The notes under the pieces are model-generated. The model was not told where the DNA came from. It did no database searches and saw only the letters and a list, made by a program, of their open reading frames with translations. A program made the translations under genes and the position numbers. Below, piece after piece: positions 31,539 through 57,122 of a stretch of DNA of 64,000 nucleotides (positions within the stretch are counted from its first letter, which is position 1; each line of letters starts with the position of its first letter). Source of the DNA: Haloplanus salinarum (GTDB lineage: Archaea > Halobacteriota > Halobacteria > Halobacteriales > Haloferacaceae); assembly GCF_024498175.1 (NCBI RefSeq), contig NZ_CP101823.1, positions 310,001-374,000 of the forward strand, given 5' to 3'.

Positions 31539-34500
31539 TCACTCCGAGGCGGGACAGGCGTCGGCCGCCCAGGACGTACAACCGGGATCCGGCCAGCTTC
31601 CCCCTCGCTCGTCGGCGTCGCCGTCGACGTCGCCCACGCCGTTCCGGTACGGGGGAACCGCGACGGCGACGACCGTCCGCGTCCGGAAGTCGATCCGCTC
31701 GTCGCGGCCGAGCCGTTCGTCCCGTCCGTCGCCGTCCACGTCCAGTCGGACGGTCGAGCCGTCGCGGACGTACCGGCTCGCTCCCCCGGGCGTCGGCGCA
31801 CCACGCCGGGTTCGAAGCGTGAACCGCGCGTAGGCGCCCCGCACCTGCACCTCCCAGACGTTGACCGTCGCGTACCAGTACCCCGGAACGGGGGCGACCG
31901 GGATCCCGGCGGGTACCGCGCCGAGCGTCTCGTTCAAGCGCCCGCGGGCCAGCCGCTCCGTCGCCGCCTCGCTCGCCCGCTCCAGCGACCGGTCTCGCAT
32001 CCGAGTCAGCGTCTCCGACACCAGGTCCTCCGCGACGGTCGTCGTGTCGGTTCGCAGGCTGTCGGCGACCGCCGTGTCGAGTCGCCGCTCCAGTCGATCC
32101 ACACGCTCCGGTTGCGGGGACGCAGCCCTGCGGTCCGCGGCGACGGCTATCGCCCCGGCGAGCGAGCCGTTGGCCGCGGCGAGCGCCCGTCGCCCGGGAT
32201 CCGGCCACCGATCGAAGGCGGCCGCGACCGCCGCCTCGGCCTCGGGCCGGGTGAGCCGCGTGCCGTTCCGGACGGCGCGGCGCGCCCGCCCCCGCAATCC
32301 GTCGAGCGACGCCGCGACGGCCCGCGAGAGCGCCCGCCGTCGGTCGCGAACGGAGCCGTTCGCGACCGGTTCGGACGCGACGAGAACCCGTGCGGCGGTC
32401 CGAAGCCTGACCCGCGACGGATCGGCCGTCACCGACGCCGACACCGCGTCCGCGGCGTCGCCGTACGGCGCCGCGAACAGGTTGACGTTCCTCGTCGCGA
32501 GGGGACGGTACGGACGCGACGGCGGCACGCCCCGCGCCCGTTCGTGACTCACCGACTCGACGGTGAGGTACGCGGGCGAACCGTCGGGGACGACGCCGAC
32601 GGGACCGCCGGGCGGACTGCCGGCGATCCGATCCCGTGGACTCACGACCGGCGTCCGCCGCGTTTCGACGATCCGCCGGAGGGTCCGTGGCGATTCGACG
32701 CCCACGCGCCCGAGGACGTCGCCGAACGTCTCCCGTGTCCGTTCGTGCGTCCGCGCACGCCGTTCCAGTCGGTCGATCGTCGCATCGAGCAACGCCACCC
32801 GCGCGTTGACGCGGGCCCGGTCCGCCGCTCCCCGATACTGCTCCGGTGGGTCGACCAACGCCGCCCGCCGCTCGCGGAGCGTGGCCGCCAGTTTCGCCGG
32901 CGGGTTGACCGTGTAGGTCGCCACTCGGCCCGCACGAACCTCGACCGAGCGGTCCGCGAGCTGCTCCCGAAGCCGCGTCAGGTCGTCGTACGTCCACGAC
33001 CGGAGGTCGGACGGCCGATCACCGTACACCGCCGCCTCGGTCGTGCCGAGGCTCGCGTTGGCGACGGCCGCCGCCACGGCGTCCCGTCCGCCCTGTCGCT
33101 CCACCAGCCGTGTCTCCACCTTCTCGGGTACGTCCGCGAGGTTCGGCCCGTCGAGTGCTCCGCCGCGCTCGAAGCGCGGCGCAGTCGGGCGGTCGGGCGC
33201 CGAGCCGTTCGGCGCGTAGGACCCCACGACGGCCACGCCGACCCGGTAGCGCTCGGTCCACGTCCCGCCCGTCGTTAGCGTGTCGTTGCCGCGCTCCCAG
33301 GTCCACCTGATCCGCCGGTCGAGGACCACGTGCCGGGAGAACGAGTCGAACTGTCGTTCGCCGTCCCCGGCCGTCGGCGCCATCCCGACGCTCGACTGCA
33401 CCTCCGGGTCGGTCGAGACGCTCGTGTCGGTCAGGCGCCACTCCGGGCCGGGTGGGTCCGGCTCCGGCCGCGGTTCGTGGTAGGTTCGATCGCGGCTCGT
33501 CCGGAGCGCCGCCTCGACGCGGTAGGCGGCACGGAGCGCGGCGTCGAGCGACCGGTTCGAAGGCACCGACTCGATCCGTAGCCCCGCCAACGCACGTCCG
33601 GCCAGCGGCCCCACGTCGACGTCGAGCCGGCGGTCCGGCGAGGGGGCCGACGCTCCACGGCGGCCGGGAAGTTCCCCCGACATGTTCGCCCGCCGGTTCG
33701 GCCGCGGGAGGACGCGTTTCGCCCGCTGCCCGTCGACCGACGACGCCGCCGTCACGTCCTCGACGCCGAGTTCCAGCGTCGCCCGTCGCATCGCCCGGCG
33801 TCCGGCGGGGTCGCTCCGCCCGAACACCGCCCGCTGGGTTTCGAGCAACGCCCCGTTGGTCGTCGTCTCCACGTGTCGGGTGCCGACGACGTTGGCGATG
33901 GGGAGACCCCCGTACTGGGCGTACCCCCGTGCCCAGGCGACCGGGTAGAGCCGTGCGGTCAGCCGTCGGCCCAGCCCCGGGCCCTCCAGCGGACGCCGGT
34001 TCAGCCGCGTCTCGAAGGCCGACGCACGGTCGTGGAGCGCGAGGACGGGTGTCGAGACGGTCACGGTCCGGGTTCGATTCTCCCGGGCGACGAGACGCTC
34101 CCCGTCACGAACCGTCAGCGTCAGGTTCCGCACCGTCACCCGGAGCGCCGTTCCGTTCTCGACGCGGGTCACCGTCACTTGATCCATGGCGCGGCGGAGT
34201 TCCGCCGGCGTCGTGGCCGCGGGAACCGACGCGACGGCCGTCACCGACCCCCGCCGGTAGCGGGTCGCGTCCAAGCGCTCGCGCAGACGGAGGTAGATCC
34301 GGAGCCGGAGCGCGTCACGGAACGGACGCCGGTCGGAAAGCAGCCGCCCGTACGGCGTCGCGGCGGGGTCGGTGACGGGCTCGGCGGCGGCCGCCCGCGC
34401 CGCCTCGCCGACGGCCGATCGCAGGGCCGCCGTCGACCCGGCCGACGCGCGGTCCATCGCCGCTGCGGCCCCGCGGTCCACCCGGCTCGGTCCCTGCGTG

Positions 34501-34604
34501 GTCACCGCCGCCGCGTACGTCGACGCCCCGACCAGCAACAGGACGCCGAGCAGGGCAAAGGGGACGCGCGCCCGCCGATCCTCGGCCAACCGGGTCACGG
34601 CCAC
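31539..34604 (-). CDS. Large single-pass extracellular protein of the pilus-like cluster (DUF7286-like)
   Basis: 1021 residues. One N-terminal membrane segment (RVPFALLGVLLLVGASTYAA, about 14-33) is followed by a very long Arg/Ala/Asp-rich extracellular region with several N-glycosylation sequons (NGT, NLT, NRT, NAS, NGS). A YWYATVNVWEVQVRGAYARF block and DGDGRDERLGRDERID lie near the C-terminus. No enzyme motif is seen. Its place after the ATPase, TadC-like and pilin-like genes (10-base overlap with the previous gene) suggests an assembly, tip or scaffold component. I recall homologues under DUF7286; the number is unverified. Confidence 0.82.
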   Translation of the reverse strand: MAVTRLAEDRRARVPFALLGVLLLVGASTYAAAVTTQGPSRVDRGAAAAMDRASAGSTAALRSAVGEAARAAAAEPVTDPAATPYGRLLSDRRPFRDALRLRIYLRLRERLDATRYRRGSVTAVASVPAATTPAELRRAMDQVTVTRVENGTALRVTVRNLTLTVRDGERLVARENRTRTVTVSTPVLALHDRASAFETRLNRRPLEGPGLGRRLTARLYPVAWARGYAQYGGLPIANVVGTRHVETTTNGALLETQRAVFGRSDPAGRRAMRRATLELGVEDVTAASSVDGQRAKRVLPRPNRRANMSGELPGRRGASAPSPDRRLDVDVGPLAGRALAGLRIESVPSNRSLDAALRAAYRVEAALRTSRDRTYHEPRPEPDPPGPEWRLTDTSVSTDPEVQSSVGMAPTAGDGERQFDSFSRHVVLDRRIRWTWERGNDTLTTGGTWTERYRVGVAVVGSYAPNGSAPDRPTAPRFERGGALDGPNLADVPEKVETRLVERQGGRDAVAAAVANASLGTTEAAVYGDRPSDLRSWTYDDLTRLREQLADRSVEVRAGRVATYTVNPPAKLAATLRERRAALVDPPEQYRGAADRARVNARVALLDATIDRLERRARTHERTRETFGDVLGRVGVESPRTLRRIVETRRTPVVSPRDRIAGSPPGGPVGVVPDGSPAYLTVESVSHERARGVPPSRPYRPLATRNVNLFAAPYGDAADAVSASVTADPSRVRLRTAARVLVASEPVANGSVRDRRRALSRAVAASLDGLRGRARRAVRNGTRLTRPEAEAAVAAAFDRWPDPGRRALAAANGSLAGAIAVAADRRAASPQPERVDRLERRLDTAVADSLRTDTTTVAEDLVSETLTRMRDRSLERASEAATERLARGRLNETLGAVPAGIPVAPVPGYWYATVNVWEVQVRGAYARFTLRTRRGAPTPGGASRYVRDGSTVRLDVDGDGRDERLGRDERIDFRTRTVVAVAVPPYRNGVGDVDGDADERGGSWPDPGCTSWAADACPASE

Positions 34605-35446
34605 GTCCTCACGACGATTCGTACGCGGCCGACGCCGACGCGTTCGGCGGCCGCCGACGCGGACGCGTTCGAGCCACGCAGGTCCCGGGCCACCCGCTCG
34701 GAGAGCGCGGCGGCGAGGCGGTCGTTCGCGTCGTCGACGTCGCCGTCGGCCGGGGTCGCGCGTCCGTCGGCGCCGAATCGACGCTCGGCGAGCCGATACC
34801 GGTGGCGGACGAGCGAAGACGCCCGTCCGCCGGCCGCCTGACGGGTCCGCGTCGGCGGGAACAGTCCATCGACGACTCCGGCCGCGACGGCGTCGGCGAC
34901 GCCCGCCATGCCGTTCGTCGCCGCGGCCGTCCGCGCGTCGGCCCGCGTCGCGGGGAGGCCACTCGGCACCGTGAGCGTCGCCGCGTGGACCGACACGTCC
35001 GGCGGTGGCCGACTCCCGACGGCGATCCGTCCGGTCACCGACGCGTTCGGATACGGTCGCCAGACCGCAGTGATCCGCGTGTTGTTGGTCCGAGCGGCCG
35101 CTTCGACGGCCCGGACGACGGCTCGAGAGAGGCCCGCCCGCTCGTGTGACAACGGCCGGCCGCCGACTGTCAGTTCCCCCACCGCCGCCCGCGCCAGGAG
35201 TTCCGCCAGCGTCCCGTGGGCCGTCCGGCCGAACGCGTCGTCGTCCTCCGTCCCCTCGACGTCGGTTAGTTCGGTCCGCGGCGTGAGCGTGTAGTTCACG
35301 GTCGCCGTCGACGTCGCCAACGTCGACGCGACGTCGGCCGCGCGTCCCTCGCCCGCCGGCTCCCGCGGCGTCGCCGTCGTCACCGTCACCACCGCGGCGC
35401 TGATCAACAGCAGGCAGAACACTCCGTCGAGGACGGTACTCGTCAC
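34595..35446 (-). CDS. Pilin-like single-pass protein (DUF7284-like)
   Basis: From GTG 35446 (overlapping the previous stop as GTGA) the protein reads MTSTVLDGVFCLLLISAAVV then TVTTATP. A short N-terminus ending in Gly is followed at once by a hydrophobic helix, as in prepilins and pseudopilins. The remaining 250 residues are extracellular and Ala/Thr/Arg-rich, with sequons NNT, NAS. About 283 residues. Likely a minor pilin or anchored partner of the large protein. No enzyme motif. Confidence 0.75.
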   Translation of the reverse strand: MTSTVLDGVFCLLLISAAVVTVTTATPREPAGEGRAADVASTLATSTATVNYTLTPRTELTDVEGTEDDDAFGRTAHGTLAELLARAAVGELTVGGRPLSHERAGLSRAVVRAVEAAARTNNTRITAVWRPYPNASVTGRIAVGSRPPPDVSVHAATLTVPSGLPATRADARTAAATNGMAGVADAVAAGVVDGLFPPTRTRQAAGGRASSLVRHRYRLAERRFGADGRATPADGDVDDANDRLAAALSERVARDLRGSNASASAAAERVGVGRVRIVVRTWP

Positions 35447-35841
35447 GACCACACCTCCACGCGGACGCGCCCGGGTCGCACCCGTCCCGGGCCCAGACGG
35501 ACGCCCACGGACCGACTCGCCGCGTCGGTCGTCGCGCCCGGCGACGGGGTCGCCCCCGCGTGCCACCGCCGGCCGGCCGCGGCGACGGTCACGTTCACCC
35601 GGTATCCGTCCGGGCCGGCGCGGTGGGCCCGCGCCGTCCGTGTCGGGTCGGCGACCCCGCCGGTCACGAGGACGTCGGTGACCCGGTCGAGGGTCGGTCC
35701 GGCGAGTTCCCGTTCGTCGCGGCGCTCGGCGCCGACGTCGTCGAGCGCGACGGCGTACGCCGAGACGGCGCTCGACACCGCCAGCAGGACCGCGAGGGCG
35801 GCGACCGGTTCGACCTGCCCCCTAGCCGACGAGCGTGACAT
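35443..35841 (-). CDS. Small pilin-like protein with class III-type signal (DUF7285-like)
   Basis: 132 residues beginning MSRSSARGQVEPVAALAVLL then AVSSAVSAYAVAL. The basic stretch ending RG, followed by Q-V-E-P and an uninterrupted hydrophobic helix, resembles an archaeal prepilin-peptidase site, with cleavage after Gly8 and a Glu near the start of the mature helix. The rest is extracellular. It overlaps the previous gene by 20 bases. ATG 35841 is chosen because the 31 residues upstream lie inside the neighbour. Confidence 0.75.
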   Translation of the reverse strand: MSRSSARGQVEPVAALAVLLAVSSAVSAYAVALDDVGAERRDERELAGPTLDRVTDVLVTGGVADPTRTARAHRAGPDGYRVNVTVAAAGRRWHAGATPSPGATTDAASRSVGVRLGPGRVRPGRVRVEVWS

Positions 35842-36289
35842 CACACCCCTCCCAGACGACGCGTCGGACGAGCAGTGGGCCGTCGACCGGCCGCCACCGC
35901 GCGGCGCGGTCGCGTGCGCTCGCCGCGGCGTCACAGAGCGCCTCGGGCGAGTCGAAACGCGACGACGGCGGCGCCCCCCGGAGGACGTCGGTCAGCGCCG
36001 CCGCTCGCGCCGCTGGCGTCACCGGACCGAACGCGAACGTCGCGTGAGTGGTGCCGGCGTCGTTCCGGAGGCCGAGTCGGTTCGGCGCGATTCGAACCGC
36101 CCGCGCGTCGAGCGGGTGTTCGGCCGTGACGGGGGCCGAGGCGCTCGCCGCCCGGTCGACCGTGTCGGCGGCGTCGGCCGCGGCCGGCGGCGGAGCGGTC
36201 GGCAACGATGCGCCGACGCCGAACAGCGCGGCGCTCGCCAGCGATAGCCCGAGCCAGGTGTACCACGCGTCGACCGGAACGTCGAACAT
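35822..36289 (-). CDS. Small single-pass protein of the pilus-like cluster (DUF7283-like)
   Basis: From ATG 36289: MFDVPVDAWYTWLGLSLASA then ALFGVGASLP gives one N-terminal helix of about 20 residues, followed by a 120-residue extracellular domain with a single pair of Cys (ALCDAAAS and WEGCDVTLVG), which could form a disulfide. 155 residues. It lies 34 bases after the TadC-like gene on the same strand. No homologous function is known to me. Confidence 0.75.
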   Translation of the reverse strand: MFDVPVDAWYTWLGLSLASAALFGVGASLPTAPPPAAADAADTVDRAASASAPVTAEHPLDARAVRIAPNRLGLRNDAGTTHATFAFGPVTPAARAAALTDVLRGAPPSSRFDSPEALCDAAASARDRAARWRPVDGPLLVRRVVWEGCDVTLVG

Positions 36290-36323
36290 GGCACGCGGTG
36301 GCCGCGTCACCGCACTTGAACCT

Positions 36324-38051
36324 TCACAGGAAGACGCCGGCCCCGACGTACGCCGCGAGGTAAGCGACGGTCGCGAGCCAGAGCGCGGCGCCGACGCGGT
36401 AGCCGACGAGCGTCCGGTCGAGTCCGTGTGTCAGTCCCGTCGAGAGGGTCGTGAGCGCGGCCGCGAGCCAGAGCACGTACGCACCCACCGCGACGCCCAG
36501 GGAGCCGGTCGGGAGGGGCGCGGCACCGAACCCGGCGCTCGTCCCGGTGTGTGCGACGCGGGCCGAGAGGGCCACCGTCGCGCCGCCGACCAGTGGACCG
36601 AAGACGGCTGCGGTGTTGGCGAGCGTGTCGGTCACCTTCGAAAGCTGCCGCCGGGCCGTGCGCTCCACCCGGCCGAGTTCCTCGACGTGTTCCGCCGTCG
36701 CGACCAACGCCTCGCCCGCCGGCTCCCCCTCGGTCGCCGCGAGGCCGACGAGGGTCACCATCTCCTCGGTTCGACGGCTCGGCAGGTCGTTCGAGGGTCC
36801 TCCGTCGCCACGAAAGGCGGCCGTCACCGTGAGGCCCAGCCGCCGCTGTCGGCGTACCGCCTCGTCGAGCAGGTCGCCGGTCGAACCCTCGATCCGTCGT
36901 GCCGCCCCGTCGAGCGCCGACTCGACGGCCTCTCCGGCTGCTACCCGTCGGCCGATCAGATACAGCGCGTCGTCGAGCTCCGACTCGACCGCGCGCACCC
37001 GCTTTCTGACCTCGTTGGCGGCGTGAAAGCGGACCACGAGCACAGTGCCGACGCCGAGTCCGACCCCGGCTATCGGGGCCGCCCACGGTGCCACCACCCG
37101 CGTGGCGACGACGCCGCCGCCCGCGCCGGCCACGACGCCCGCCGCGAGTGCGGGCACGGGACCGTCGGGCGTCTCGGGATGGGACGCGTCGATCCGCGGC
37201 GGCGGGAAGGCGACCGGGCGGCGGGCAAGCAGCCACGCCCCGGCCCCGACCATGACGACCGGGAGGACGACGTCGTAGAGGGCGACGATCACGGCCAACG
37301 GGATGCGTGCGCCCGTCGCCCGCGCCGCGGGAAGCACACCTACGAGGGCCAGCGGGAGCAGGACGCCGAAGGCGTACAGCCCCGTGACGGGGCCGCGGAT
37401 CTCGCTCGCGAACGCCGCCAGCTCCTCCCGGGCGCCGTCGAGCGCCGCCGAAACGGCTCGGTCGAGGTGGCGCTCCCGTTCGTCGGGGGGCGCCGCCGCC
37501 GCGGCCTCTAAGCGCGAGACCGCACGCGAGAGCGCCGGGAAGGACTCGCTCCATTCCTCGTCGAAGCCGTCGAACCCGTTCCGGGGCGTGCCCGCGGCCC
37601 GTGCCACGTGGCCGTCGAGGCTGCGGGCGAGCACGCCGCGTCCGGTCCGTGCGGCGAACGCGGCCGCCCGTTCGACCGTCGGATCGATCCGCAGGCACAT
37701 CGCCGCCCGGCCGACGAGCGCCGCGGCCGACCCGAGCGCCCGCGTCCGTGCCAGACGCGCCGCCAGTCGGGGGCCGCGGTTCGCGGCGAGGGGGACGCCG
37801 GCGCCGACGGCGACGCCCGTAGCCGCGGCCACGACCCCCCATCGTGGCGTCGTCGCGACGCCCACCACCACTCCGAGGACCGCGACGACGACACCGACGA
37901 GCGTCCCCGCGACCCGCGCTGCCCGTTCGAGCGCCGGGGCGTCGACGGGCGCACGGAGGTACGCGAGCGCCCCCTCGAGGGCCGGATCGGCGGGCGTGGG
38001 CCACGGCCATCGCTGGGCGAGGGTCTCGACGACCACCGTGCCTTCGATCAT
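36324..38051 (-). CDS. TadC/GspF-like pilus assembly membrane protein
   Basis: 575 residues with a duplicated type II secretion F domain, as in archaeal PilC/TadC proteins. Several hydrophobic segments are visible (VVVAVLGVVVGVATT, LLPLALVGVLPAA, IPLAVIVALYDVVLPVVMVG, and three more at the C-terminus). Cytoplasmic helices are RVRAVESELDDALYLIGRRV and AAGEAVESALDGAARRI. The F protein couples the ATPase to subunit assembly at the membrane. It overlaps the ATPase gene by four bases. Confidence 0.85.
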   Translation of the reverse strand: MIEGTVVVETLAQRWPWPTPADPALEGALAYLRAPVDAPALERAARVAGTLVGVVVAVLGVVVGVATTPRWGVVAAATGVAVGAGVPLAANRGPRLAARLARTRALGSAAALVGRAAMCLRIDPTVERAAAFAARTGRGVLARSLDGHVARAAGTPRNGFDGFDEEWSESFPALSRAVSRLEAAAAAPPDERERHLDRAVSAALDGAREELAAFASEIRGPVTGLYAFGVLLPLALVGVLPAARATGARIPLAVIVALYDVVLPVVMVGAGAWLLARRPVAFPPPRIDASHPETPDGPVPALAAGVVAGAGGGVVATRVVAPWAAPIAGVGLGVGTVLVVRFHAANEVRKRVRAVESELDDALYLIGRRVAAGEAVESALDGAARRIEGSTGDLLDEAVRRQRRLGLTVTAAFRGDGGPSNDLPSRRTEEMVTLVGLAATEGEPAGEALVATAEHVEELGRVERTARRQLSKVTDTLANTAAVFGPLVGGATVALSARVAHTGTSAGFGAAPLPTGSLGVAVGAYVLWLAAALTTLSTGLTHGLDRTLVGYRVGAALWLATVAYLAAYVGAGVFL

Positions 38052-39955
38052 TCGGCCACCCGTTCCCGGTGGACCGCGTCGACCGCCGCCGGATCGGTTC
38101 GCTCCGTCCCCGCGAGGTTGGCGAGCAGCGAGGCCCGTTCGTCGATGACGCCGAGCACGTCGGCGTAGGACTCGCCCGGCCGCGCCAGCGACGCGACGAG
38201 ACGGCTGTTTCCACGGTCGACGACGCCGGTCGCCTCGGTGCCGTCCCCGACGGGTTCGAACAGCGATTCGAACGCGACGCCGTCCCCGGTGTCGCGCACT
38301 TCCTCGACGCTCGAAACGGTGCGTCGCTCGCCGGCCGAGAGCGTGACGAGGAAGTCCGTCGCCCCAAAGGAGGACGCGGGGACCTCGAGGTCGGACACCA
38401 CCCGTTCGAACACCGCGTCGGCGCCGTCGCCGTGGATCGTACCGAGGACGGCACTGCTCGCGGCCCCGACGCGCATCGCCTCGTAGAGCGTCGCCGCCTC
38501 CTCGCCCCGAACCTCGCCGACGACCAGCGCCCCCTCGCCGAGGCGGAGCGCGGTCCGAAGCGCCTCAGTCGGCGAGAGCGCCGGACCGTCGCCGGACTCG
38601 ACGCGGACGGTCTGGACGTCCCGGCCGGCCTCTTGGAGTCTCGCCGCCGGAAGTTCGGGCGTGTCCTCGACGACGACGGCGCGCGTCGACGGCGGGAGTT
38701 CCCACAGGAGCGCCGAGAGGAGCGTCGTCTTCCCGGCACCACGCGGTCCGGCGATCAGCCCCGCGCCGGCGCGCTCGACGGCGACCGAGCAGAGCGCCGC
38801 GGCGTCGACCGGGAGCGTCCCGTTGGCGACGAGCGCCGGGAGCGTCCACGCCTCCCGTCCGCCGGTGCGAAAGACGAACGCGTAACCGTCGCTCGCCGGG
38901 TCGGCGACGCCGGCCACGCGGACCCGCCCGTTACGGGTTCGTGTCGTCGCGTCGAGGGTCGGCGCCGCCCGCGAGAAGGCACGTCCGCTCTCCCGTCGGA
39001 ACCGGGAGGCCAGCGCTTCGGCCCCGCGACGGGTCAGGTGGACGTTCGTCGGCACCCGCTCGCCGTCGACGGCGACGCGAACCGGGTTGTCGGTGACCGG
39101 CGCCGTCACCAGCACCTCAGACACTCGCGGATCGGCGAACAGGTCCTCCAAGACGCCGTGCCCGCGGGTGTGGCGCCGGAGAACGCGCTCCACCGTCGCC
39201 ACCGACATCGATCCGTCGGCCGGCGCCACCGTCCGGACGGCACGCGAAACCGCCGCCGCGTCGTCCCCGGTCGTCGTGTCGGCGAGCCGGTCGTACGCGT
39301 CGGCGAGCGTCGTCAGTTCCGCCGCGTCCAGCCTCCACCCCGGCGGATCGAGCAGGTAGCGGTCGCTCGCCTCCGTGCGGTACCGCCGCACCGTCGCGCC
39401 CGTGCCGAGTTCGCGGCGAGCGACCAGCGTCGCGTCGCGTGGCGGGCACCGATCCAGGCGCGTGTCGGCGACCGTCGGTCCCGTCCGCGCCCCGAACGCC
39501 GCCTCGTAGCCGTCGACCCGGTCGGCGCCGGCGGCCAACCCCGTACTCGCGGCCAGCGTCGACGCGGGACCCGCGCGGCCGGTCGCGGCTCGGGCCGCCC
39601 CCAGCGGGTCGCGACGTGCCCGCTCGGCCAGTCGTTCGTCGTGGACGGCCACCCGGGCGGCGAACCGACCCGCCGCGACCAACAACCCGACCGCTCCGTC
39701 GTCGTACACCCGTTCGCGGCCACCCGCCCTGACGTGGACGGCGTCGACCCCACTGCCCGCGAGCGCGTCGACGACCGTCGCTCGACAGTCGGGGCTCGCG
39801 ACCAGGTCACCCCTCGCTGGACAGCCGTCGGCCGCCACGACGAGCGTGCCGGACCGGTCGGGGTCGTTTCCGCGGGGCGACCGAACCGCCGGGTCGCAGC
39901 CACAGCCGTCGTCAGTCTCGTCGTCCCCCTCCCGCAGTCGGTCCAGTAGACGCAT
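38048..39955 (-). CDS. Type II/IV secretion ATPase (PilB/TadA-like) with Cys-rich N-terminus
   Basis: 635 residues. The ATPase core has Walker A AGPRGAGKTTLLSALL, the Asp box VVVEDTPELP, Walker B-like ALVVGEVRGEE and the His box VLGTIHGDGADAVFERV. The N-terminal third is specific to this family and carries Cys18, Cys20, Cys45 and Cys57, unusual in a haloarchaeal protein and a possible zinc site. It powers pilin polymerisation or secretion with the TadC-like partner. ATG 39955 (MRLLDRL) is favoured over the in-frame ATG at 39979. Confidence 0.9.
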   Translation of the reverse strand: MRLLDRLREGDDETDDGCGCDPAVRSPRGNDPDRSGTLVVAADGCPARGDLVASPDCRATVVDALAGSGVDAVHVRAGGRERVYDDGAVGLLVAAGRFAARVAVHDERLAERARRDPLGAARAATGRAGPASTLAASTGLAAGADRVDGYEAAFGARTGPTVADTRLDRCPPRDATLVARRELGTGATVRRYRTEASDRYLLDPPGWRLDAAELTTLADAYDRLADTTTGDDAAAVSRAVRTVAPADGSMSVATVERVLRRHTRGHGVLEDLFADPRVSEVLVTAPVTDNPVRVAVDGERVPTNVHLTRRGAEALASRFRRESGRAFSRAAPTLDATTRTRNGRVRVAGVADPASDGYAFVFRTGGREAWTLPALVANGTLPVDAAALCSVAVERAGAGLIAGPRGAGKTTLLSALLWELPPSTRAVVVEDTPELPAARLQEAGRDVQTVRVESGDGPALSPTEALRTALRLGEGALVVGEVRGEEAATLYEAMRVGAASSAVLGTIHGDGADAVFERVVSDLEVPASSFGATDFLVTLSAGERRTVSSVEEVRDTGDGVAFESLFEPVGDGTEATGVVDRGNSRLVASLARPGESYADVLGVIDERASLLANLAGTERTDPAAVDAVHRERVAE

Positions 39956-39994
39956 GGGACGCCGTGGCCCCCCGATCACTCTTGAACCTCGGCC

Positions 39995-40429
39995 TCACCC
40001 TCGGGCGATCACGACTCCGACGCCCCGGTCCCGGACGAGCGAGACGACGAGCCGGTGTCGCCCCGGTCGTTCGAGGACGACCGGTCCCGCTGGCGTCCGG
40101 AGGTCGATTCCTCGGAGTGTCGTCCAGCGTGGCGGCCGGCCGTCGAGTCGGTAGCCGACGCGGTCCTCATCCCCCTCGATTCGCAGGCTCGCCCCCGCGG
40201 CGCTCCAGGAACGGGCCGGGAGGGAAACACGGACGATGCGTCGTGCGCCCGATACCGACGGGCGGGTGGGATCCTCGTGGGCGCGCAGCGAGTGGACCGT
40301 CCGTTCGATCCGGTCGGTGACGCCGTCGAGGTGTGTCGCCGTCCGCGACCGGCGAGCCTCGTCGATACCCGGGACGACGGCGGCGAACAGGGCGACCGAC
40401 AGCAGGACCGCGAGGACCGCGCGGATCAC
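39995..40429 (-). CDS. Small membrane-anchored protein upstream of the secretion ATPase (DUF7311-like)
   Basis: 144 residues: MIRAVLAVLLSVALFAAVVP forms an N-terminal hydrophobic helix directly followed by GIDEARRSRTATHLDGVTDR, an alpha-helical stalk like that of pseudopilins. A beta-rich domain ends with HRLVVSLVRDRGVGVVIARG. Its start overlaps the coiled-coil gene stop by four bases and it lies 39 bases before the ATPase. Probably a minor pilin or anchor; DUF number from memory. Confidence 0.75.
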   Translation of the reverse strand: MIRAVLAVLLSVALFAAVVPGIDEARRSRTATHLDGVTDRIERTVHSLRAHEDPTRPSVSGARRIVRVSLPARSWSAAGASLRIEGDEDRVGYRLDGRPPRWTTLRGIDLRTPAGPVVLERPGRHRLVVSLVRDRGVGVVIARG

Positions 40430-52425: not shown

Positions 52426-52842
52426 TCAGAACTCCACGTTCGACGACGAGGCTGGGCCGCCGTCGTCGAGCGATCCGGTCGTGACGAAGGCGTAGTCGTC
52501 GTCGGTCAGGTAGACGGCCCCGTCGTCGACGGTCACGTCGACGGCTTCGAGGGTGGCGCCCTCACAGGGACCGAACGTGCAGTAGCCGGAGTCGGCCTCG
52601 AAGTAGGCGCCGTGGTTCGCACAGACGAGTTCGCCGTCGCGCATCGGGGCTCCGGAGCCCTTGTCCAGGCGCACGTCCAACAGGTGTCGACAGTAGTTCA
52701 GCCAGCCGCGCACCTCCCCGTCGGCGACGCGGACCAGCACCGCCTCGCGCTCCTCGCCGGTGTCGAGACGACGGAGGGTGACGAGGAAGGTGGTGTCGTC
52801 GGGGACCGAATCGAGCGACGTCATCCGTCGGTCGGCGTCCAT
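52426..52842 (-). CDS. Rieske [2Fe-2S] protein
   Basis: 138 residues. The cluster ligands are NYCRHLLDV (C-x-H) and LVCANHGAYF (C-x-x-H), separated by a short loop, with a Rieske beta-fold around them. It resembles stand-alone ferredoxin-type Rieske proteins of haloarchaea, not the membrane cytochrome bc type, since there is no signal helix. A TATAAAT box (minus strand, 52867-52873) predicts start near 52845, favouring ATG 52842 and a leaderless mRNA. Confidence 0.85.
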   Translation of the reverse strand: MDADRRMTSLDSVPDDTTFLVTLRRLDTGEEREAVLVRVADGEVRGWLNYCRHLLDVRLDKGSGAPMRDGELVCANHGAYFEADSGYCTFGPCEGATLEAVDVTVDDGAVYLTDDDYAFVTTGSLDDGGPASSSNVEF

Positions 52843-52894: not shown

Positions 52895-53836
52895 TCAGCC
52901 ACGGGTCGCCGCGACACGCTCCGCGAACAGTCGGGAGAGCAGGTCGGTGACGGGGCCGCCGCCGACGGCGACGCCGTCGAGTCGGGCGACCGGACGGACG
53001 CCCGCGCTGGGTTCCGCGACGAAGGCCTCCTCGGCCTCGCGGACGTCGGCGGGCGTGTAGCTGCCGGTCACGACGGGGAGGTCCTCCGCCGCGGCGAGTT
53101 CGCGGACGACCGACCGGGTGCCGGTCCGGGCCGGTCGGTCGCCGAGCGCCGGCAGTCGGACGGCGTCGCCGTCGACGAAAAGGGGGTCGCTCGCCGTCCC
53201 GCCCACGACGTGTCCCTCTGCGTCGAGCAGGAGGGCTTCGTCCGCCGGGCCGCCGTCGGGGGGCGCCGCCCGCCGGAGTTCGGCCTGTGCGCGGACCGCG
53301 TCGAGTCGGTTGTGCGTGAGCGGCGCCGCCGGCACCGCGTCGGGCGCGATGGCGCGGGTGCGGACGGTCTGGAGGGTCAGCGGCGCCGCCTCGGTCCCCG
53401 CGTCCGCCGACGGGGCCGGCGTCGCCGTCACGACCACGGTCGGGTCGGGGTCGGCCGGGGGGCGTAGGCGGTCGGCGTCCGGCAACACGGAGCCGGCCCT
53501 CCGGCCGTCGCCGTCCGCCGTGTTCCCGTCCCCGATTTCGCGTCCGGCGCCCCCGCGACCACGCGTGATCGAGACCCGAACCAGCGCGTCGTCGAGCCCG
53601 GCGGCGGCGAGCGTCTCCTCGACGCGCGCACGGAGGGTGGCGGCGTCGACGCCGGGGTCGAACCCGTGGCGCTCGCAGGCGCCGAACAGGCGGTCGACGT
53701 GGGGTCGCCACGCGAAGGGCGTCCCGTCGTAGACCCGCAGGGTGTCGGTCACGGCGTCGCCGAGAGCGACCCCGCGGTCGTCGAGCGGGAGCGTCGCGTC
53801 GTCGGGGTCGACGAGGCGGCCGTCGACGTGGTACAT
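52895..53836 (-). CDS. Class IV aminotransferase-fold protein lacking the PLP lysine (PabC/BCAT-like)
   Basis: 313 residues with the fold-type IV framework: DDRGVALGDAVTDTLRVYDG (substrate entry), RVSITRGRGG, PAAPLTHNRLDAVRAQAELR and a C-terminal EAFVAEPSAGVRPVARLDGV. In active 4-amino-4-deoxychorismate lyases the third block carries Lys just before Thr-His-Asn; here that position is Leu173, and the whole protein contains no lysine. The cofactor-contacting E-G-x-x-S-N motif is also altered (GGTASD, 212-217). An acidic insertion occupies 100-130. Probably not a PLP enzyme. No pabA/pabB genes are nearby. Confidence 0.85.
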   Translation of the reverse strand: MYHVDGRLVDPDDATLPLDDRGVALGDAVTDTLRVYDGTPFAWRPHVDRLFGACERHGFDPGVDAATLRARVEETLAAAGLDDALVRVSITRGRGGAGREIGDGNTADGDGRRAGSVLPDADRLRPPADPDPTVVVTATPAPSADAGTEAAPLTLQTVRTRAIAPDAVPAAPLTHNRLDAVRAQAELRRAAPPDGGPADEALLLDAEGHVVGGTASDPLFVDGDAVRLPALGDRPARTGTRSVVRELAAAEDLPVVTGSYTPADVREAEEAFVAEPSAGVRPVARLDGVAVGGGPVTDLLSRLFAERVAATRG

Positions 53837-53842
53837 CGCCGG

Positions 53843-54352
53843 TCAGCGGTCCTTCGCGCGGTCGATCCAGCGGCCGACCCGCTTCGCCGAGAGGTCGACC
53901 TTCGGCGCGAGTTCCTCGGCGTCCGCGGCCGCGAGGTCGGCCACCGACTCCACGCCGGCCGCCGAGAGCCGTTCGGCGTAGGCGGGACCGATGCCCTTGA
54001 TGACCTCGACCGATTCCCCGGTCGTCGCCGGCTCCCCGTCGTGTTCGCCGGTCGTCTCGCCGGCGGATTCGGCCGCCGCCGTGTCGAGTTCCGTCTCGGT
54101 GTCGCTCGCGTCGGGCCCTGCCGCCTCGGCGGGTTCGGCGGCGTCGGCGTCCTCGTCGACCAGCGAGTCCGTCGACGCCGCGGCCTCCGTCCCGGCGGCG
54201 GCCTCGTCGGCGGAGTCCGTGCCCTTGACGGCCGCTTCGGAATCGGTCTCTACCCGGTCGCGTTCGACGCTGACGGTCGTCTCCCGTGGCTCGTCGTTCG
54301 ACGACGACCCGTCCAGTCCGAGCAGCGACAGCAGCGTGTCCAGAATTCCCAT
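53843..54352 (-). CDS. Helix-hairpin-helix protein with amphipathic N-terminus and acidic linker
   Basis: 169 residues from ATG 54352. MGILDTLLSLLGLDG is amphipathic, residues 20-110 are a disordered Asp/Glu/Ala/Thr-rich linker, and the C-terminus carries VIKGIGPAYAERLSAAGVES and VADLAAADAEELAPKVDLSA, a Rad51/Pol-like HhH (DUF4332-type) domain. It could bind DNA non-specifically. It lies six bases upstream of the class IV-fold gene. Confidence 0.8.
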   Translation of the reverse strand: MGILDTLLSLLGLDGSSSNDEPRETTVSVERDRVETDSEAAVKGTDSADEAAAGTEAAASTDSLVDEDADAAEPAEAAGPDASDTETELDTAAAESAGETTGEHDGEPATTGESVEVIKGIGPAYAERLSAAGVESVADLAAADAEELAPKVDLSAKRVGRWIDRAKDR

Positions 54353-54397
54353 TGAAGACACGTATGGCCGCCCGATATTTAAAAACCGGCGAGGCGG

Positions 54398-55216
54398 TCA
54401 GAGGCGTGATCTGAGCGCGTCGTTCATCGCGCCGACGGGCGCGTCCCGACCGGTCCAGCGCTCGAAGGCGGCGACGCCCTGGAACAGGAGCATCCACGCG
54501 CCGTCGATGGTCGTCGCACCCGCCTCGGCAGCCGTCCGGAGCAGGCGCGTCTCGATCGGCGAGTACACCGCGTCGAGGACGGCCAGGTCGGCGTGGAGCA
54601 GGGCCGCCGGCACCGGGGTGGCGTCCTCCTCCATCCCGACGCTCGTCGCGTTGACCAGCAGATCGGCCGCGGGCACTCGGTCCCCGAGGGTGTCCAGTCC
54701 GCCCGCCGTCACGGTGGCGTCCGGGTCGCCCGCCCGGACGTCGGCCGCGAGTTCCGCCGCTCGCTCGACGGTCCGGTTCGCGACGTGGACCGCCTCGCAG
54801 GCCTCGGCGAGGGTGATGGCGACGGCGCGGCCGGCGCCGCCGGCGCCCACGACGACGGCTTCGGCGCCGGCGAGCGGGACGCCGTGGTGTTCGAAGGCGC
54901 GGCGGACGCCCGCGGCGTCGGTGTTGTATCCGCGGGGCGGCGACGTGGAGAAGTCGACGGTGTTGACCGCGCCGATCCGTGCCGCGAGGTCGTCCGGGTC
55001 GACGTGTTCGAGGACGTCCTGCTTGAACGGGATGGTGACATTGAGGCCGTCGATGCCGAGTGCCGCCGCCCCGTCGAGGGCGCGGGCGACGTCGTCGGGG
55101 GCGGGTTCGAACGTGACGTAGCGGGCGTCCATGTCGAGTTCGCGGTAGGCCGCCTCGTGCATCGGCGGCGAGAGCGAGTGGCCGACCGGGTTGCCGATCA
55201 GTCCGTAGACGTGCAT
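54398..55216 (-). CDS. aroE: Shikimate dehydrogenase
   Basis: Reduces 3-dehydroshikimate to shikimate with NADPH. 272 residues: [20 protein letters not shown] (shikimate binding), [17 protein letters not shown] with the catalytic Lys, GAVNTVDF, the NADP motif [27 protein letters not shown] and [22 protein letters not shown] 55216 ([10 protein letters not shown]) is the conserved start. With aroD, DHQ synthase II and ADTH synthase it completes four consecutive shikimate steps in the window. Confidence 0.95.
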
Positions 55217-55314
55217 CGGCGACGGCTTCGTCGCGGGGGGAGAAAAGCCCCCGCGTCCGACGCGCCAGCACGGCCGCCGATTTATTGGGTCACCCCCGCG
55301 TACGTCCGCCCGGT

Positions 55315-55734: not shown

Positions 55735-55797
55735 ATGATTCGGACACCCGACACGGGACGTCCCGTCGCGTCCCGGGATGGCGGAGGCGAACCATGA
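55735..55797 (+). CDS. 20-codon leader ORF overlapping the exchanger start
   Basis: ATG 55735 opens MIRTPDTGRPVASRDGGGEP and stops at TGA 55795-55797, overlapping the ATG of the Na+/Ca2+ exchanger (ATGA). A TTTTATTA promoter element at about 55695 puts transcription start near 55722. The 14-base perfect palindrome ACGGGACGTCCCGT (55753-55766) lies inside. A GGAGG at 55783-55787 serves the exchanger. This arrangement suggests translational coupling or attenuation; expression is unproven. The rest of 55510-55734 shows no feature. Confidence 0.45.
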   Translation: MIRTPDTGRPVASRDGGGEP

Positions 55798-57122
55798 ACC
55801 GACAGGCTTTCGGTGCGCTCGGCGGCGCGTTCGCACTGACGCTCCCGTGGATCGTCAGTTACCTGACTGGGACGGCCCACGGGTTCTCGACCGGGGTGAC
55901 GGTCCTCGTGAGCGGGCTCTCGGTACTCGGCGCGTCCTTCCTGCTCGCGTGGGGAGCCGAAACCGCGGAGAAGGACGTCCCCCGGGCCTTCGCCATCGCC
56001 GTCCTCGCGGTGCTGGCGGTCGCCCCGGAGTACGCGGTCGACGCGCTGTACGCCTGGAACGCCGGCGTGTTCGCGGGGACGGAACGCGGGGTCGAGGCGG
56101 GCAACCTCGCCGTCGCCAACATGACCGGTGCGAACCGCATCCTCATCGGCATCGGCTGGGCCGGCGTCGCCCTCTTTACCGTCTTCCGCCACGGATCGGC
56201 GGAGGACCCCGCGGTGAGAAGCCGGGACGGCTTTCTCGCCGACGCCGTCTCGCTGGACCGCGACATCGGCCTCGAAATCGTCTTCCTCTTTCTCGCCACG
56301 CTGTGGGCCTTCCTCGTCCCCCTCGGCGGCGGGATCGACATCCTCGACATGGCGGTTCTCGTGGGACTCTACGTCGCGTACATCGCCATCGTCCTCAAGG
56401 GCGACGTCGAGGCCGACGAGGCACACGTGGGCGTGCCGGCCTACCTCCAGACGTTCCCGAAACCCTACCGCGCGGCGACGGTCCTCGGCCTCTTTGCCTA
56501 CTCAGGGTTGATGATCTTCACCGCCGTCGAGCCGTTCGCTCACGGGCTCGAACAACTGGGGCAGAGCATCGGCGTCCCCTCCTTCTTCATGATCCAGTGG
56601 ATCGCCCCCCTGGCCTCCGAGTCGCCGGAACTCATCGTCGTCGTCTATCTGGTGAACAAGGCGCGGTCGACCGCGGGATTCAACGCGCTCATCTCCTCGA
56701 AGCTCAACCAGTGGACACTCCTGATCGGGACGCTCGTTCTGGTCTACTCCCTCGCACTCGGCCAGTACGGCGCGCTCCCGTTCGACCAGAAGCAGTCCGG
56801 CGAGATCTGGCTGACCGCCGCGCAGTCCTTCTTCGCCATCTCCCTCCTGATCAACTTCGAGATATCGGTCCGCGAGGCCGTCGTGTTGCTCGTCCTCTTC
56901 CTCTCGCAGGTGCTCTCCGAGTTCCTGCTCATCCGGGGGGTCCTCGTGATTCCCATCTCCGATTACGAACTCCTACTCGTGTTCACGGGCATCTACCTCG
57001 TCCTCGGGACGGGGCTGTTCGTCGCCCGGCGGCGGGCGCTCAAGGGGATCCTCACACAGACCGCCGGGACGGTGAGAAATGCCTTTTCGACCGGCAGCGA
57101 CCGACCACGGGGGGCAGACTGA
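55794..57122 (+). CDS. Na+/Ca2+ exchanger family membrane antiporter
   Basis: 442 residues with about 10-11 helices arranged as two Na_Ca_ex repeats. The alpha-repeats read VAPEYAVDALYAWNAGVFAG with GNLAVANMTGANRILIGIGW, and IAPLASESPELIVVVYLVNK with FNALISSKLNQWTLLIGTLV. The acidic E in PEY and SPE are expected ion ligands. It likely exports Ca2+ or another cation in exchange for Na+ or H+. UspA follows two bases after the stop, and a leader ORF precedes it. Confidence 0.88.
   Translation: MNRQAFGALGGAFALTLPWIVSYLTGTAHGFSTGVTVLVSGLSVLGASFLLAWGAETAEKDVPRAFAIAVLAVLAVAPEYAVDALYAWNAGVFAGTERGVEAGNLAVANMTGANRILIGIGWAGVALFTVFRHGSAEDPAVRSRDGFLADAVSLDRDIGLEIVFLFLATLWAFLVPLGGGIDILDMAVLVGLYVAYIAIVLKGDVEADEAHVGVPAYLQTFPKPYRAATVLGLFAYSGLMIFTAVEPFAHGLEQLGQSIGVPSFFMIQWIAPLASESPELIVVVYLVNKARSTAGFNALISSKLNQWTLLIGTLVLVYSLALGQYGALPFDQKQSGEIWLTAAQSFFAISLLINFEISVREAVVLLVLFLSQVLSEFLLIRGVLVIPISDYELLLVFTGIYLVLGTGLFVARRRALKGILTQTAGTVRNAFSTGSDRPRGAD

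Follow-up and report, generated by a model that had tools for sequence, protein, structure and literature searches.

A lysine-less class IV aminotransferase homologue at the ancestral pabC position in Haloplanus: a probable PLP-free descendant of PabC

Introduction

A class IV aminotransferase-type protein without the catalytic Lys is already known from a solved structure (PDB entry 7z79). This entry and 9j32, both entitled 'Aminotransferase, class 4', presumably come from Variovorax paradoxus and represent what we take to be a fold type IV protein described as lacking the catalytic Lys. According to the accessible part of a paper on fold type IV transaminases (PMC12429042), these enzymes hold PLP by a Lys (Schiff base), a Glu (N1), a Tyr (O3′) and, at the phosphate, an Arg and two Thr residues. 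For haloarchaea, the accessible part of PMC8305020 gives Haloferax volcanii HVO_0708 as the proposed PabC (aminodeoxychorismate lyase), without experimental confirmation. Our search of the literature on Lys-less class IV proteins, on 7z79 and 9j32 and on haloarchaeal PABA genes, with most subscription papers outside its scope, found no description of the family reported here.

The gene under study lies in a stretch of 64,000 nucleotides from Haloplanus salinarum (the window), which belongs to a genome of 3.45 Mb in one contig (G000; Haloferacaceae). It encodes a class IV aminotransferase homologue in which the PLP site has largely been replaced (Table 1). We favor, with a probability of roughly 0.5, the reading that this protein is a retained PLP-free pseudoenzyme, an in-place descendant of pabC whose remodelled former active-site region would bind a ligand or a partner.

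Table 1. Features of the Lys-less gene and its locus, in window positions.
Feature	Position	Strand	Basis
Rieske [2Fe-2S] domain protein, downstream of the Lys-less gene, ancestral cluster	52426..52842	-	Profile, synteny
Lys-less class IV aminotransferase homologue, PabC-derived, 313 residues	52895..53836	-	ORF, profile match, orthologues
Pro276 codon, second phosphate-binding Thr site, lost	53009..53011	-	Column set by this alignment
Thr240 codon, phosphate-binding Thr, kept in Haloplanus	53117..53119	-	Column set by this alignment
Gly212 codon, site of the Glu contacting PLP N1	53201..53203	-	Alignment; site role from PMC12429042 (accessible part)
Residues 174-204, THxRLDAVRAQAELRRAAPPDxxPADEALLL, most conserved block, insertion relative to PabC	53225..53317	-	Alignment
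Arg177 codon, site of the Tyr contacting PLP O3′	53306..53308	-	Alignment; site role from PMC12429042 (accessible part)
Leu173 codon, PLP Schiff-base Lys site	53318..53320	-	Alignment with PabC
Arg49 codon, phosphate-binding Arg site, kept	53690..53692	-	Column set by this alignment
Helix-hairpin-helix (HHH) protein, 6 bp upstream of the Lys-less gene, ancestral cluster	53843..54361	-	Profile, synteny
aroE, shikimate dehydrogenase, ancestral cluster	54398..55219	-	Profile, synteny
Na/Ca exchanger family protein, divergent from aroE, outer marker of the ancestral locus	55794..57122	+	Profile, synteny

The protein and its PLP site

The protein begins with an ATG, in agreement with the starts of its orthologues, and none of its 313 residues is a Lys. 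It matches Pfam PF01063 (Aminotran_4) over residues 29-285 with an E value of 4.4e-28 and a score of 99.1 bits (cut-off 28.5), which places it in the class IV superfamily, and its closest relative within that class is PabC. Its matches to the NCBIfam lyase and aminotransferase models all lie far below the cut-offs; the best aminodeoxychorismate lyase equivalog model reached 83.2 bits against a cut-off of 260, in a scan that left out the intact PabC. The structure predicted from three sequences has a mean pLDDT of 42.6, too low for the pocket to be read.

In the alignment with PabC, the column of Leu173 is Lys in all 41 comparator PabC sequences and is occupied by Leu (four), Ala (three), Val (two) or Thr (one) in the ten Haloplanus orthologues. 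Since the replacing residue varies, this position carries no conserved new role. The Tyr site is Arg in 10/10 orthologues and in all 17 Lys-less sequences of the two genera considered below. The Gly212 column is Glu in 41/41 comparators and Gly or Ser in 10/10 Haloplanus orthologues, and the region of the E-G-x-x-S-N motif reads VVGGTASD in the present protein. At the phosphate site, Arg49 and Thr240 are kept throughout the ten sequences and the third residue is always Pro. The six PLP-contact columns of the Haloplanus group are thus L/A/V/T, G/S, Arg, Arg, Thr and Pro, with two of six contacts retained. Residues 94 and 123 are both Arg, each in 16 of the 17 Lys-less sequences from both genera.

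A preliminary description, made from the window alone, had proposed a class IV aminotransferase homologue devoid of Lys, with Leu173 at the Schiff-base position and GGTASD in place of E-G-x-x-S-N, that could not work by the normal PLP mechanism. The profile match, the composition and the alignment bear out the first three points, and the loss of PLP contacts besides the Lys lends support to the last; function as a PLP enzyme by the known route is not expected. Two of its other arguments fared less well. Four of the 33 ORFs of at least 250 residues in the window (crude gene calls), this one included, contain no Lys, and the neighboring PQQ propeller and TM157 genes are Lys-free in four of four genomes each; because of this the Lys-free chain is mostly a matter of composition, and it is the loss at the catalytic site that is specific. 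At the rate of the window, the chance of zero Lys in 313 residues is about 0.02. A chain free of Lys, common in this G+C-rich genome, was therefore rejected as a sign of function. The inference from an intact frame of more than 900 bases to a gene that is not decaying is weak as to the frame, as overlapping ORFs of up to 800 residues occur in the window at this G+C; what speaks for it is a dN/dS well below 1 (see below). Elsewhere in the window, positions 31539-40429 hold a run of minus-strand ORFs (crude gene calls) with a G+C of about 75% and almost no Lys.

The locus and its history in Haloplanus

The gene order aroE-HHH-pabB-pabA-pabC was found in 14 of the 20 loci read and additionally in L108. 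A Rieske gene comes next after pabC in most loci of this order, and a divergent Na/Ca exchanger gene precedes aroE in several. The Haloplanus order is aroE-HHH-[Lys-less protein]-Rieske, with pabB and pabA absent from the locus. Because the gene holds the slot of pabC between these neighbors, it descends in place, as judged from synteny, from the ancestral haloarchaeal pabC, whose neighbors pabB and pabA have been lost. In many genera the HHH and Rieske genes remain next to pabC or to what has descended from it.

When 99 genomes of the family were searched, orthologues were present in seven of the eight that belong to Haloplanus. A search across the genus showed that 10 of 12 genomes encode this third PF01063 protein and that two, G096 and G102, do not. 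All ten proteins lack a Lys both at the catalytic site and anywhere in the chain, their frames are open with no internal stops, and the other nine are 62-80% identical to the H. salinarum protein. As all ten agree, the Lys loss is not a one-genome error, and a sequencing error, which the preliminary description had named as a possible refutation, is ruled out. G096 and G102 do have aroE, HHH and Rieske; the gap from HHH to Rieske measures about 155 and 118 bases, respectively, and no remnant of the gene was found at an E value of 1e-3. The Lys-less gene is dispensable in Haloplanus, since these two of the 12 genomes do without it though HHH and Rieske are kept.

The genome of H. salinarum encodes three PF01063 proteins: the present one, a branched-chain type enzyme that retains the Lys, and a PabC with the motifs AAKTHNYLDG and EGATSN. 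The last of these is encoded in a complete pabB-pabA-pabC operon at about 2.38 Mb, 2 Mb from the Lys-less gene; the second, intact pabC that was sought in the genome therefore exists, which rules out the Lys-less gene as its sole PabC. The two proteins are about 43% identical over 311 aligned residues. Each of the 12 Haloplanus genomes encodes a PabC-type protein that has the Lys. The complete operon of Haloplanus (L001, on G000:C1) sits away from the ancestral aroE locus and may have come there by transfer or by relocation.

A second Lys-less lineage and orphaned PabC

Seven genomes of a second haloarchaeal genus (g14; G038, G057, G089, G113, G116, G125 and G135) have a Lys-less protein in the same locus arrangement with pabB and pabA gone; the stretch from G125 stops short of aroE, and G113 has no HHH match among those listed. 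The Lys site is Thr in six of the seven and Ala in one, and Tyr is again replaced by Arg and Glu by Gly. The PLP columns of this group (T/A, Gly, Arg, Arg, A/V with Thr in one, and Ala) retain one of six contacts, or two in the single sequence with Thr, Thr240 being lost in the other six. These proteins carry two to four Lys residues elsewhere and do not have the APPD insertion. No other PabC was found in the six of seven genomes covered, in which the sole other PF01063 match scores like the branched-chain enzyme.

Chorismate-binding genes number two in six of the seven second-group genomes and three in G113, compared with three in 4/4 relatives with intact PabC; three were also counted in 5/5 Haloplanus genomes. 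From the count of two against three in relatives with intact PabC it follows that pabB is gone from the second-group genomes. Two of the matches in G113, on contigs C21 and C22, have identical scores and are probably an assembly duplicate. All 19 genomes tested have a dihydropteroate synthase-type gene (PF00809). A second Pterin_bind match in G136 (C1:1597626-1598323) is split, with an in-frame TAG, and is probably a broken gene.

Orphaned PabC proteins that keep the Lys occur in G019, G033 and G053 (loci L107, L133 and L027); each of these genomes has two chorismate-binding genes and no pabB-type gene. All six PLP contacts are intact in G033; Tyr has become His in G053; and in G019 Glu has become Gly and one Thr has become Ala. 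Across 293 genomes of the order, the known Lys-less members scored 455-474 bits and the next match 383 bits; further Lys-less lineages may exist among the matches below this gap.

In a PabC tree of 62 sequences, each Lys-less group forms one side of a branch (100/100). The neighbor of the second group is intact PabC from the same genus (86/99, which is below the mark of the tool for firm support), and the Haloplanus group is set apart by a long branch (1.26 changes per site). This tree does not reject a union of the two groups (p-AU = 0.353) and leaves undecided a sister relationship of the Haloplanus group to the second PabC of its own genus (p-AU = 0.30). In the trees of both flanking genes, aroE and Rieske, the second group clusters with its own genus, and a union of the groups is rejected by Rieske (p = 4e-7) and marginally by aroE (p = 0.049). 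The flanking genes and synteny thus favor two independent in-place conversions, which is the simpler history. One shared origin is disfavored by the Rieske and aroE trees, though the PabC tree allows it, and the gene alone may have been transferred from one genus to the other.

Selection and retention

Simple pairwise Nei-Gojobori estimates, made on genes with G+C-biased third positions, gave a median dN/dS of 0.354 for the Haloplanus group (range 0.180-0.499; 45 pairs from ten genomes; median 0.392 for the 16 of 45 pairs with dS < 0.6), compared with 0.261 for PabC from the same ten genomes. The corresponding values in the second genus are 0.315 for the Lys-less group and 0.163 for ten intact PabC sequences. 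Mean divergence in the Haloplanus group is 0.19, 0.18 and 0.40 at codon positions 1, 2 and 3, and the G+C of the codon positions keeps the coding pattern. A dN/dS near 1, the second refutation that had been envisaged, is thus not what the orthologues give; over all 45 pairs, and with ten unbroken frames, the values are not those of a pseudogene. The estimates speak against neutrality and indicate purifying selection, which is somewhat relaxed since dN/dS exceeds that of intact PabC.

Conservation in the Haloplanus group is highest in residues 174-204, where 22 of 31 columns are invariant compared with 84 of 254 elsewhere (p = 5.7e-5, which is descriptive only because the block was chosen after the alignment had been viewed). 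The corresponding block of intact PabC from the same genomes has 15 of 25 invariant columns, compared with 147 of 260 elsewhere (p = 0.45).

The main rival to retained function is a slow relic: loss of pabA and pabB would have removed the substrate, the active site would have eroded, and the constraint would be residual (for example, avoidance of misfolding). Such decay would fit the coincidence of the active-site change with pabBA loss, the relaxation of dN/dS in both genera, the absence of the gene from two Haloplanus genomes and the graded degeneration of the orphaned PabC in G019 and G053; it would also fit G011, G026 and G037, which have no PabC match and two chorismate-binding genes each (three rows read as two in G037). 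We nevertheless consider it unlikely, in view of ten open frames among proteins this divergent, of third-position changes twice as frequent as those at positions 1 and 2, and of conservation that is not spread over the chain but centered on a single block, in which the orthologues share an insertion. The Lys-less protein does not behave like a neutral pseudogene, and a PLP-free role near the former active site is the most likely reading.

Possible function

The reading as a retained pseudoenzyme starts from what the sequences show. The aroE-HHH-pabB-pabA-pabC-Rieske locus has lost pabB and pabA, and the descendant of pabC is still in place. Residues that hold or activate PLP are gone, with Lys replaced by Leu, Ala, Val or Thr, Tyr by Arg, Glu by Gly or Ser and one phosphate Thr by Pro. 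Purifying selection has maintained the gene through the divergence of Haloplanus, and the second pabBAC operon carries the intact PabC. The cleft, with Arg49 and Thr240 kept and Arg177 gained, might bind an anionic ligand or a protein partner, and the role would be sensing, regulatory or scaffolding, PLP-free and on the class IV fold.

That both haloarchaeal lineages have gained an Arg in place of the Tyr (17/17), and that 7z79 has Arg there as well, would also suit a new enzyme in which the Arg177 pocket converts an anionic substrate, chorismate-like or other, without PLP. We regard this as improbable, more so than a relic: among the gains that the groups share we recognised neither a new cofactor motif nor an obvious catalytic residue, and the aroE/HHH/Rieske neighborhood is ancestral and points to no new pathway. 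In serine palmitoyltransferase, LCB1 is the regulating subunit for LCB2. A non-catalytic partner that forms a comparable regulatory heterodimer with intact PabC would accord with the presence of a Lys-bearing PabC throughout Haloplanus and with the dimeric state of fold type IV transaminases, whose active sites are formed from both subunits (PMC12429042, accessible part), but is the least probable of the alternatives, as the Lys-less protein of the second lineage is kept in genomes where no other PabC was found and the two Haloplanus genomes without the Lys-less gene still keep PabC.

If two genera converted their PabC independently, the proteins would constitute a PLP-independent family that is new and of convergent origin, and whose ligand or partner is conserved. 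One archaeal family offers a natural series from intact pabBAC through orphaned, Lys-bearing PabC to two conserved Lys-less lineages, in which the change from a PLP enzyme to a non-PLP protein and the recurrence of pocket changes can be tested. The locus also holds a warning for annotation: a protein labelled 'aminotransferase' or PabC here cannot be counted toward PABA synthesis. An external supply of PABA is a predicted requirement of haloarchaea that lack pabB but keep a dihydropteroate synthase-type gene.

Comparison with known systems

The present protein belongs to the same family as haloarchaeal PabC, which by position would be its ancestor. It differs in the absence of the Lys, the Tyr, the Glu and one phosphate Thr, in insertions of its own and in having no adjacent pabA or pabB. 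The Lys-less PabC of the second genus resembles it in its locus, in the loss of pabBA and Lys and in the changes of Tyr to Arg and Glu to Gly, and differs in having some Lys elsewhere, no APPD insertion and no other PabC-like protein found in its genomes. We tentatively propose, as a possibility that falls short of even odds, that a PabC orphaned by the loss of pabA and pabB can turn into a PLP-free protein and that two genera independently reached this same pocket, with a possible third instance in bacteria (7z79).

The best PDB matches of the family profile are 7z79 and 9j32 (E of about 3.5e-33). In the profile alignment, the Lys, Tyr and Glu columns are occupied in 7z79 by Asn, Arg and Ser, respectively, whereas 9j32 has Lys in the first of them; the two entries may represent the wild type and a mutant of one protein. 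The relationship is distant (118 bits), and 7z79 retains Thr where the present family has Pro276. The pattern of 7z79, with the Lys replaced, Tyr changed to Arg and Glu changed to a small residue, is found in the Haloplanus family, and its occurrence in both 7z79 and the haloarchaeal groups may be convergent.
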